NCBI RefSeq assembly: GCF_017814435.1
Contig: NZ_JAGJCB010000004.1
Coordinates: 1 to 64,000 of the forward strand
Length of the DNA stretch: 64,000 bases
Direction: 5' to 3'
DNA from: Mariniflexile gromovii
GTDB taxonomy: Bacteria; Bacteroidota; Bacteroidia; Flavobacteriales; Flavobacteriaceae
Part shown: positions 20,369-40,302 of the stretch, one piece after another
How positions within the stretch are numbered: the stretch's first letter is position 1
How the letters are laid out: each line of letters begins with the position of its first letter
Made by a program: the position numbers and the translations under genes
Notes under the pieces: generated by a model
Databases searched by the model: none
What the model saw: only the letters and a program-made list of their open reading frames with translations
What the model was told of the DNA's origin: nothing

Positions 20369-20953
20369 ATGAGTTTAGAAGAATTTTATGATGAATTGAA
20401 TTTTGTTGATGCTTCTCGTGAAAACCGACAAAAATATGCTCAAATGGTTTTAGACGACATGAGCTTATTTCCGAAATTGATAGATGTGATGTTTCGGGTC
20501 AATGACAAAATATCGTGTCGTGCCGCTTGGGTTTTTGAGTTTGTTTGCGAGCATTATATTTATGCCATTGTACCGTATTTAGACACTTTTTGTTCCAATA
20601 TAAAAAAAGTACATTTAGATTCTGCCGTGCGACCCATAGCCAAAGTTTGCAGTTTTATTGGGCAAGAATACGATACTAAACAACCCAATACTTTAAAAAA
20701 AGTATTAAACTCCAAACATATTGAATTAATAATTGAGGCTTGTTTTGATTGGTTGATTGGCGACCAAAAAATTGCAGCCAAGGCGCATGCCATGGACGCT
20801 TTGTTTCTTTTAGGAAAAAACCACTCGTGGGTGCATCCGCAATTAGTACAAATTTTACAGCAAGATTTCCCTACGCAAAGTGCTGGATATAAAGTGAGAG
20901 CTAAACGTATTTTGAAGAAACTTACACCTGTTGCAATAAACAATAGGCAATAG
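20369..20953 (+). CDS. HEAT-repeat-like protein upstream of purB
   Basis: This 194-residue, mostly helical cytosolic protein carries segments such as DKISCRAAWVFEFVCEHYIY and AAKAHAMDALFLLGK that look like HEAT/ARM helical pairs. It has no catalytic motif I recognise. It is conserved next to adenylosuccinate lyase in many Flavobacteriaceae (from memory). Its stop codon lies inside the second unit of a CAATAGG tandem array. Confidence 0.65.
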   Translation: MSLEEFYDELNFVDASRENRQKYAQMVLDDMSLFPKLIDVMFRVNDKISCRAAWVFEFVCEHYIYAIVPYLDTFCSNIKKVHLDSAVRPIAKVCSFIGQEYDTKQPNTLKKVLNSKHIELIIEACFDWLIGDQKIAAKAHAMDALFLLGKNHSWVHPQLVQILQQDFPTQSAGYKVRAKRILKKLTPVAINNRQ

Positions 20954-20982
20954 GCAATAGGCAATAGGCAATAGGCAATAGG
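20941..20982. repeat. Heptamer tandem repeat (CAATAGG)6
   Basis: Six exact 7-bp units are followed by CAAAGG. The array starts within the last codons of the preceding gene, whose stop TAG falls in the second unit. Confidence 0.95.
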
Positions 20983-21061
20983 CAAAGGAAAAACAATTCT
21001 TGAATTTCCATTTTTTAGTTTAAAGTTTTCTTATTTAAATGTTCTGTTTTTAAAAACTCAA

Positions 21062-34291: not shown

Positions 34292-34355
34292 TGAAACTTT
34301 GAAACCCTGAAACTCTGAAACTTTGAAACTTTGAAACTTTGAAACTTTGAAACTT
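34292..34355. repeat. Octamer tandem repeat (TGAAACTT)8 before the BtuD-like gene
   Basis: Eight 8-bp units run without a break; the second and third are the variants TGAAACCC and TGAAACTC. The array ends 5 bp before the ATG at 34361 and so fills the ribosome-binding region of that gene. Confidence 0.95.
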
Positions 34356-38821: not shown

Positions 38822-38961
38822 TATCATCTAAAAACGTGATATATTTGTTTATCACCTAAAAACGTGATATATTTAAATATTCCACAAAAAGAGCATATAT
38901 TTAAATATTCCTTAAAAAAGGCATATTTTTGAATATTCCCTAAAAATGGAATATAAAATTT
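38822..38961. repeat. Five tandem 28-bp palindromic repeats, likely operators or RNA hairpins
   Basis: Units start at 38822, 38850, 38878, 38906 and 38934, each exactly 28 bp and contiguous. Each has a left arm, an A-rich 8-bp spacer (CTAAAAAC-like), a right arm and an AT-rich tail. Unit 2 is TATCAC/GTGATA and unit 5 is TATTCC/GGAATA, so both arms changed together. Unit 1 keeps one T-G pair, unit 4 has one mismatch, and unit 3 is worn. The array ends 4 bp before the SatD-like gene. Confidence 0.9.
38924..38931 (+). promoter_or_regulatory. -7 box of the SatD-DUF3307 operon, inside repeat unit 4
   Basis: TATTTTTG fits TAnnTTTG. Transcription would start near 38937, so repeat unit 5 would be the first hairpin of the mRNA. 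A second match (TATATTTG, 38840-38847) lies in unit 1. Confidence 0.6.
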
Positions 38962-38965
38962 GAAT

Positions 38966-39601
38966 ATGGTAAGTATAATAACAGGCGACATCGTTAGGTC
39001 CAAAAAATTTAAAAACCCAGAAATATGGTTAACGCCCTTAAAAGACGCATTAACAAAAACGGGAATTGATAAAAAATATTGGGAAGTTTTCCGTGGTGAT
39101 AGTTTTCAAATTGAAATTGAGGACAATCAAAGGGCATTCCATATTGCAACATATATTAAAGCGTGTGTAAAAACCGTAAAAGGGTTGGATGTAAGAATGG
39201 CAATTGGCGTGGGCAATAAAGCCTTTGAAGGCAAAATAATTACAGAATCTAACGGTGAAGCGTTTCAATTTTCTGGAGACACCTTAGAGGAACTTAAAAA
39301 AGAGAAAACAAACTTAAAAATAAAGTCCCGATATTTATTTTTAAACGAAGAATTAAACCTGTATTTTAAACTTGCCTTAATAACGATGGATAATTGGTCT
39401 GTCAATTCCGCAGAAACAGTTAAAATAGCTCTTGAAAACCATAGTGTTTTACAAACAGAAATGGCACAAGTTTTAGGTGTAAGTCAAGATGCGGTGAGCA
39501 AACGTTTAAAACGCGCCCATTTTAGTGAAATCATGGAGTTGGACGGCATGTTTCGAAAAAAAATAAATCTGTTAGAAGAAAAACAATTGGAAGAGAAATG
39601 A
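38966..39601 (+). CDS. SatD-family protein with C-terminal helix-turn-helix
   Basis: This 211-residue protein starts with a SatD-like domain (about 1-130: SIITGDIVRSKKF, FRGDSFQIEI, DVRMAIGVGNKAF). It ends in a helix-turn-helix (about 155-190: VLQTEMAQVLGVSQDAVSKR). The ATG at 38966 is preferred to an upstream in-frame TTG. Five tandem palindromes end just before it, and I infer that it binds them and controls its own operon. It overlaps the next gene by 4 bp (ATGA). Its biological role is not established. Confidence 0.8.
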   Translation: MVSIITGDIVRSKKFKNPEIWLTPLKDALTKTGIDKKYWEVFRGDSFQIEIEDNQRAFHIATYIKACVKTVKGLDVRMAIGVGNKAFEGKIITESNGEAFQFSGDTLEELKKEKTNLKIKSRYLFLNEELNLYFKLALITMDNWSVNSAETVKIALENHSVLQTEMAQVLGVSQDAVSKRLKRAHFSEIMELDGMFRKKINLLEEKQLEEK

Positions 39602-40302
39602 TGGTACTGATAAAACTTTTACTGGCTCATATTATTGGCGATTTTTTTCTTCAACCTGAAAAATGGGTGAAAGAAAAAGAAAAGAAAAAGCTAAAATCCA
39701 ACAAGCTCTATTTTCATGTTTTAATCCACATCATCTTAACTAGCGTCTTTCTTTGGGATGCTTCCTTATGGCCCATCATTTTAACCATCGGCATAACGCA
39801 TTTCATTATTGATGCTACAAAACTTTCAATTCAAAAGAAAAAAACAAGGCGTCTTTTATTTTTTATAGACCAAATACTGCATATTGCTGTTATTTTTTGC
39901 TGCTATTATATTTTTATCGAGAACACATTCAGCTTGAACAATATTGTAACAGAATTCAATCTTTTGCTATTAGCTTGTTTGCTATTTTTAACAATACCTA
40001 CTTCAATAATTATGAAAACCATTTTTTTAAAGTGGAATATTTCAGAACTCACTAAAAATAACGAGTCACTTGAGGATGCAGGGAAATATATTGGTATTTT
40101 AGAGCGTGTTTTAGTGTTTATTTTTATAATAGTAGGACACTGGGAAGCTGTTGGATTTTTAATTACGGCTAAATCGGTTTTTAGATTTGGCGATTTAAAA
40201 GAATCTAAGCACCGCCAACTTACAGAATACATTTTAATAGGAACTTTAATAAGTTTTGGTATCGCTATTTTTACCGGACTTATTTTCAATTCGCTAATTT
40301 AA
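39598..40302 (+). CDS. DUF3307 membrane protein
   Basis: This 234-residue protein has about six hydrophobic segments. The family motif is at the N-terminus (LLLAHIIGDFFLQPEKWVKEKE), with THFIIDATKL shortly after, where His and Asp residues within the membrane are conserved. The function is unknown. It overlaps the SatD/HTH gene by 4 bp and is probably the target of that regulator. A thioesterase gene follows 5 bp later. Confidence 0.85.
   Translation: MMVLIKLLLAHIIGDFFLQPEKWVKEKEKKKLKSNKLYFHVLIHIILTSVFLWDASLWPIILTIGITHFIIDATKLSIQKKKTRRLLFFIDQILHIAVIFCCYYIFIENTFSLNNIVTEFNLLLLACLLFLTIPTSIIMKTIFLKWNISELTKNNESLEDAGKYIGILERVLVFIFIIVGHWEAVGFLITAKSVFRFGDLKESKHRQLTEYILIGTLISFGIAIFTGLIFNSLI

Follow-up and report, generated by a model that had tools for sequence, protein, structure and literature searches.

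Tandem palindromes before satD co-vary with the recognition helix of SatD and are probably the operator of a self-repressing operon

The SatD family (PF16264) is named after the sat operon of Streptococcus mutans. Our searches of the open-access literature found no self-regulating DNA-binding role for the family, no paper naming SatD and DUF3307 together among the matches listed, and only unrelated matches for operators of this kind in Flavobacteriaceae. The part of PMC10326533 that speaks of the "SatD family" connects it with acid resistance only. Described systems resemble the locus reported here in different respects. Xre-RES of Pseudomonas putida (PMC12204516) has a palindromic operator in the regulator's own promoter and acts by transcriptional repression. 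For the IclR (PMC8222616), GntR (PMC4494728), and MerR (PMC5045206) regulators, correlations between amino acids of the DNA-binding domain and site bases are described. Some actinobacterial proteins join a class III cyclase domain to a LuxR-type helix-turn-helix (HTH) (see PMC2447327), a pairing of cyclase-type domain and HTH that would recur in SatD.

The window is a stretch of 64,000 nucleotides from Mariniflexile gromovii (contig NZ_JAGJCB010000004.1, positions 1 to 64,000), and the units, promoter boxes, codons, and genes given here lie on its forward strand. Its satD gene (38966 to 39601) encodes a protein of 211 amino acids with a putative palm-like N-terminal domain and a C-terminal HTH, and the stop codon is overlapped by 4 bases by the gene for a DUF3307 membrane protein of 234 amino acids (39598 to 40302; PF11750, 8e-30). 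Five 20-bp palindromes with an exact 28-bp period occupy positions 38822 to 38961, in the promoter of this gene pair. An earlier note, made from the letters of this DNA, had described contiguous 28-bp palindromic units with two arm types, TATCAC/GTGATA and TATTCC/GGAATA. Both observations are confirmed: the units start at 38822, 38850, 38878, 38906, and 38934, spaced exactly 28 bp, with the first arm type in units 1 and 2 and the second in units 3 to 5. Every palindrome is followed by an 8-bp A/T-rich linker, and 12 bp separate the last palindrome from the ATG of satD. Of 7 outer arm pairs, 5 are formed in unit 1 (TATCAT...GTGATA, 38822 to 38841), 6 in unit 2 (TATCAC...GTGATA, 38850 to 38869), 4 in unit 3 (38878 to 38897), 6 in unit 4 (TATTCC...GGCATA, 38906 to 38925), and 6 in unit 5 (TATTCC...GGAATA, 38934 to 38953); the symmetry is poor in unit 3 (TATTCC/AGCATA), and a single T.C mismatch occurs in unit 4. 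The array scores 18.0, whereas 500 dinucleotide shuffles of the 260 bases concerned reach 6.0 at most, and a score of 18 was reached by none of 605 shuffles of the 121 upstream regions described below. Elsewhere in the window, tandem repeats with short units lie at 34292 to 34355 (8 bp, 8 copies), 20933 to 20985 (7 bp, 7.6 copies), and 1847 to 1886 (ATA, 13.3 copies).

We propose that the array is the private operator of SatD, whose dimers would tile the repeats, cover the promoter, and repress their own operon. We consider this reading as a whole probable; that SatD itself binds the array is very likely and, given such binding, repression rather than activation is what we would expect with good confidence. 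Since changes in the repeats go along with changes in the DNA-reading residues of the protein, SatD very probably binds its own promoter, and does so as a dimer. The -7 box recurs at a single slot within the repeat, and the -33/-7 spacing often equals the repeat period, which suggests promoter occlusion, i.e., negative autoregulation. One SatD dimer would read one 20-bp palindrome through the C-terminal HTH, recognizing on either side of the A/T-rich center a TAT and three to four further specific bases. Usually three or four dimers (2 to 6; the window has five sites) would align, presumably cooperatively, every 28 bp or, in certain lineages, every 29 bp. The satD-DUF3307 promoter would have its -7 box, and often its -33 box too, in fixed slots of the same repeat, so that bound SatD would cover the promoter and hold the operon down. 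A nucleotide bound by the palm-like domain would set DNA binding, this domain being the probable point of entry for the signal. The self-regulated SatD-DUF3307 operon that the earlier note had supposed is thus supported, at the level of sequence, by the conservation of the array and by the co-variation of half-site and recognition helix.

Within the family to which the window belongs, 161 of 299 genomes have a SatD homologue, and upstream regions were read in 111 of these 161 (109 plus the window's own and that of L006). To the 121 satD loci analyzed, the genus search together with named contigs contributed 12 and the family search 29, and a further 80 were fetched. They are almost all from this family; L013 belongs to Cyclobacterium, outside it, and L012 to an unplaced Bacteroidia MAG. 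The partial match G056 was left out, as was L002, a duplicate of L007; some loci may be one species twice, and rows more than 80% identical were down-weighted in the mutual-information test alone. Across the 121 upstream regions the mean autocorrelation is 0.160 (standard error, 0.006) at lag 28, 0.094 at lag 56, and 0.026 at lag 84; the next lag, 20, reaches 0.023, and lags other than 28, 56, and 84 average -0.005. Perfect palindromes with 6-bp arms are most strongly enriched at a total length of 20 (243 versus 23 in mononucleotide shuffles), followed by lengths 22 (105) and 18 (93). An array score of at least 7 at period 28 is attained at 106 of the 121 loci, compared with 4 of 605 dinucleotide shuffles and none of 121 stretches of the DUF3307 gene. 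Palindromes upstream of orthologous satD operons, which the earlier note had suggested looking for, are present in 111 of the 121 loci when arrays passing at period 28 or 29 are counted (the shuffle comparison is for period 28 alone), and 10 loci fall below the threshold at both. The earlier note had conjectured that array length or state sets expression; the number of units per array varies between loci from 2 to 6 and is usually three or four.

The array also extends beyond the family. A phylum-wide sample contains the SatD protein in 99 of 395 genomes and 47 of 171 genera. Among 49 outside-family loci from 48 genomes, 30 pass the threshold, 29 of them at period 28 or 29, with each locus scored at the best of ten periods (24 to 33) and shuffle controls covering the fixed period 28. 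Twenty of the 49 fail at period 28 or 29, and for 17 of these the score against the SatD profile is below 175 bits. Among the most distant SatD proteins, loci such as L194, L196, and L198 to L201 are without a passing array, as are the closer relatives L154, L171, and L172; in L180 and L201 the start codons are misplaced by 138 and 83 residues, and the true upstream regions lie outside the stretch covered. Lineages with a 29-bp period are L166, L169, L170, L173, L175 to L177, L182, L188, L189, L195, L102, and L128 to L132; a difference in the promoter spacer or in protein contacts may lie behind this period. A 28-bp periodicity was also seen before distant SatD genes with another recognition helix, in L183, L184, and L186 (z values of 4.4, 2.8, and 3.7), the half-site in L183 being AATCAAC/GTTGATT.

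The flavobacterial sigma-A -7 box is TAnnTTTG and spans -12 to -5, according to the relevant part of PMC9723704. The earlier note had placed the -7 box in unit 4, and TATTTTTG at 38924 to 38931, overlapping the end of this unit, fits that consensus and is the likely -7 box of satD. The -33 slot 24 nucleotides upstream (38900 to 38903) holds TTTA instead of the consensus TTTG, so that the promoter of the window fits only partially. A second -7-box-like sequence, TATATTTG, is found at 38840 to 38847, in slot 18 of unit 1, the slot preferred in other arrays. A box in slot 18 starts two bases before the end of the palindrome or one period further on, and 87 of 96 TAnnTTTG boxes in or beside 106 arrays lie there, a count partly raised by the preference of the array finder for units that end in ATA. 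TAnnTTTG occurs at most 120 bases from the ATG in 70 of the 106 arrays (10.6 expected from shuffles), and the last 120 bases of the other 36 contain none. Of the 60 arrays defined by a TAnnTTTG nearest the ATG and within 80 bases of it, 39 have a TTTG placed exactly 24 bases before this -7 box (20-bp spacer), against a background of 2 of 96 TAnnTTTG on both strands of the window. Judged by motif alone (slot 18 and TTTG at N20), the array sites overlap the core promoter. Since the distance from TTTG to TTTG equals the repeat period, the -7 box of one unit could double as the -33 box of the next in uniform arrays.

The position of the units relative to the -7 box also bears on the sign of regulation. 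If SatD bound the array as an activator, stacked upstream dimers would recruit RNA polymerase and create a positive loop. We regard this as improbable, although there are layouts that suit it: in 41 of the 60 arrays no complete unit lies downstream of the -7 box, in some lineages the promoter comes just downstream of the array with the last unit where an activator could sit, and L094, L096, and L109 have all units upstream of a TTTG-N20-TACATTTG promoter. However, in most arrays with a -7 box this box coincides in part with a unit's end or follows one period after it, as the slot 18 count illustrates, and 19 of the 60 arrays have one or two units downstream of the box, an arrangement expected to block polymerase.

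Half-sites nearly all begin with TAT, and their inner bases differ by lineage, the types being TATCAC, TATTCC, TATTAGC, TATAAGC, TATCGT, TATCGG, TATCTGC, TATTACC, TATATGC, and TATTGG; the array finder favors units that start with TAT and end with ATA, and the inner bases, which carry the code described below, were not so chosen. In 326 units the A/T content is 94% in the palindrome center, 88% in the linker, and 51% in the inner arms. Two half-site types coexist in 6 of 106 arrays (L001, L007, L008, L025, L039, and L042), which do not amount to six independent cases because L001, L007, and L008 are close relatives. In these mixed arrays both arms are of one type in all 28 readable units, and the facing arms of neighboring units differ in 6 of 22 cases, which identifies the 20-bp palindrome as the recognition unit. 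The order of the two types is reversed between the group of the window and L025/L039. To judge from these sequences, one protein faces two half-site types in mixed arrays.

Co-variation with the protein was analyzed in 106 of the 121 loci, those with an array score of at least 7 and two good units. Residue 179 of SatD ranks first of 170 columns for the information it shares with the half-site (corrected value, 2.15 bits; effective n of 91.4 after weighting of rows more than 80% identical), followed by residues 175 (1.39) and 185 (1.24). Residues 179 and 175 are both in the recognition helix, predicted to comprise residues 174 to 183 in the window protein (39485 to 39514; pLDDT block means of 94 and 96), and residue 185 comes just after it; the tracking residue of the window is Lys179 (codon 39500 to 39502). 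Related genomes share both the residue and the half-site, and relatedness was therefore controlled in three ways. At matched identity of SatD plus DUF3307, sharing residue 179 raises half-site similarity by 0.296, the first of 167 columns (mean, 0.005; standard deviation, 0.036), and residue 175 with 0.092 does no better than residues 193 and 195 (about 0.09). When the tree was built with the HTH left out, all 6 independent supported pairs for K or R had the half-sites expected (P = 0.031); for E the figure was 4.9 of 6, no pair being opposite (P = 0.0625), and for Q it was 3 of 3 (P = 0.25). Small residues (N, T, S, M, and G) gave one pair with the same direction and two without a difference. 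The residue and half-site groups of this test were set after the table was seen, with CCC joining the K/R group late. A tree of the SatD domain only had too few supported pairs, and adding DUF3307 helped. Finally, the class of residue 179 as read from the 106 loci predicts the half-site in 20 of 24 outside loci, with none of 10,000 permutations as good; the 24 loci represent 17 genera (13 right throughout), and some are near relatives.

The resulting code can be read from residue 179 to bases. Within the 106 loci, Q179 goes with TAG or AAG half-sites in 30 of 34 loci, K179 with TCC or GCC in 21 of 26 (plus three mixed arrays with a majority of CCC and two with TAC), R179 with TAC in 3 of 3, E179 with CGx or CTx (CGT, CGG, CTG, or CTT) in 19 of 20, and N, T, S, or M179 with CAC or CAT in 13 of 16. 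Among the E179 proteins, N176 accompanies T and T176 accompanies G at the middle position (8 of 9 versus 0 of 10; Fisher P = 1.2e-4). The code is not carried by residue 179 alone, since the half-site class was recovered in only 84 of 103 cases when loci were left out in turn. The window protein, with D175, A176, and K179, fits units 3 to 5 best, and units 1 and 2 (TATCAC) fall outside the code for K179. The co-variation of arms and recognition helix in orthologues, which the earlier note had named as a check of its idea, is thus borne out, with residue 179 as its main carrier. Its suggestion of symmetrical recognition by a protein dimer agrees with this co-variation; the RNA stem-loops that it had offered as the other possibility fare poorly, as detailed below.

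The code also bears on which protein occupies the array. One or more other DNA-binding proteins could bind it, with SatD a mere neighbor, and the two half-site types in one promoter (6 of 106 arrays) could then mean two proteins. We consider this very unlikely, as throughout the phylum the half-site changes with the recognition helix of SatD itself, and the one neighbor examined, DUF3307, has no DNA-binding Pfam match among 16 members.

The repeats could instead act as RNA stem-loops in the leader, as an attenuator, in translation control, or as protein-binding hairpins. Units 2 and 5 alone do fold, at -4.2 and -3.8 kcal/mol, but unit 3 has no fold, and mismatches in the arms show no excess of wobble pairs (94 G.T versus 118 A.C). 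Moreover, the 41 arrays without a complete unit downstream of the -7 box would leave no such unit in the transcript, and the arms track a DNA-reading residue of SatD. The earlier note had taken unit 5 as the first hairpin of the mRNA. With the -7 box at -12 to -5, the expected start is near 38936, inside the left arm of unit 5, and would truncate this hairpin; for the expected 5' end (38936 to 38975) the folding energy is -2.0 kcal/mol, which does not surpass that of shuffles (z = +0.55). We therefore give the stem-loops even less credit than a foreign binding protein. That the array is a mobile or replication-type repeat (CRISPR-like, iteron, or MITE) that lies here by chance is scarcely credible: the tandem units of constant length would suit such an element, but the array has a fixed place before one gene in 111 of 121 loci, no spacers, and no second copy in the genome by exact pattern.

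Exact matches to TATCAYN8RTGATA occur at 7 places in the 4.28-Mb genome, 2 in the array and 5 alone elsewhere (3 matches for the reversed control), and TATTCCN8GGMATA matches exactly in the window array only. No second array of the TATCAY or TATTCC type was found in this genome with these exact patterns, which looser copies would escape. A two-unit TATCAY pattern matched in 8 of 10 genomes, always just before satD. For these two half-site types there are no tandem sites away from satD in the genomes searched, and we rejected a wider regulon of tandem sites as a candidate, these being at satD only (exact TATCAY and TATTCC patterns in its own genome, two-unit pattern in 10 genomes); single or weak sites may exist elsewhere.

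The window protein scores 29.4 bits against PF16264, narrowly above the curated cut-off of 29, and 13 of 14 diverse SatD relatives match the model at an E-value of 0.1 or better. The Pfam model spans residues 5 to 184 of the window protein. The earlier note had read the protein as a SatD domain fused to an HTH; the HTH is there, whereas its status as an extra fusion does not stand, because the family model itself runs across it. DNA binding may thus be a common property of SatD proteins, those from outside Bacteroidota included. The AlphaFold2 model (pLDDT of 90.4 overall) has the HTH at the C terminus, and residues 1 to 120 are predicted to form a beta-alpha-beta-beta-alpha-beta core with one more helix and strand. 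In a Foldseek search of this model against the PDB, the first 14 matches are GGDEF, adenylyl/guanylyl cyclase, and Cas10-type proteins and GTP cyclohydrolase III (probability of 1.00; TM score of 0.25 to 0.41 over the query), the best being 4zvf (GGDEF) with an E-value of 2.9e-3 and none reaching 0.001; by sequence, no solved relative was convincing (best E-value, 0.28). The N-terminal domain is accordingly modeled as a palm like that of GGDEF proteins, class III cyclases, and Cas10, with which it would share two conserved aspartates: Asp8 (ITGDI; codon 38987 to 38989), kept in 99% of 168 sequences, and Asp45 (RGDSF; codon 39098 to 39100), kept in 100% (rounded), which by their position would be metal ligands. 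Class III cyclases carry an Asn/Arg pair, of which the SatD alignment, inspected by eye, has no clear counterpart. The PADLOC candidate model PDC-S05 weakly matches residues 147 to 188 (39404 to 39529; E-value of 7.8e-5), which probably reflects HTH likeness. A known anti-phage defense system was rejected as a candidate, with PADLOC giving this weak HTH match alone for SatD and no match for DUF3307, and the window SatD matched none of 50,697 phage records (tblastn, E-value of 0.001).

DUF3307 is a nearly constant partner of SatD: its gene follows satD directly in 120 of 121 loci, with the frame opening within 71 bases. Fifty-nine of its positions are at least 93% conserved, among them H10, D14, Q18, H39, H43, H67, D71, D90, and H94 (a second numbering runs one higher). 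The predicted structure (pLDDT of 82.9, pTM of 0.55) found no fold match in the PDB with an E-value better than 1.1; our impression is that the protein resembles membrane metal hydrolases. A more far-reaching reading, which we offer tentatively and consider doubtful, joins both proteins and the promoter. SatD, with palm and HTH, would read or make a nucleotide and tile a lattice in which the operator is the promoter, the 28 bp between two TTTG being the period and each TTTG serving as a -7 box and then as the next -33 box. The nucleotide state would switch the whole tract and with it DUF3307, and SatD with this membrane protein, rich in invariant His and Asp, would form a signaling unit used throughout the phylum.

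In summary, private repression by SatD of its own operon would give the SatD family a concrete role, that of a self-binding transcription factor, and the locus makes the residue-to-base code of a small HTH legible over a whole phylum. The arrays and their matching proteins are a natural series for testing the evolution of protein-DNA specificity, and the signal of the palm-domain regulator and the task of its DUF3307 partner become directly testable questions. The actinobacterial proteins that combine a cyclase domain with a LuxR-type HTH are much larger and of other make-up than SatD, and we know of no promoter lattice for them. Compared with autoregulated HTH repressors such as Xre-RES, the SatD arrays usually have three or four units on a 28- or 29-bp lattice and are found phylum-wide; they also differ from operators of this type in carrying the promoter boxes in slots of the repeat. 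Measured against the residue-base correlations of the IclR, GntR, and MerR regulators, SatD stands out in that one residue dominates the code and that the only tandem sites found are those of the gene's own array.
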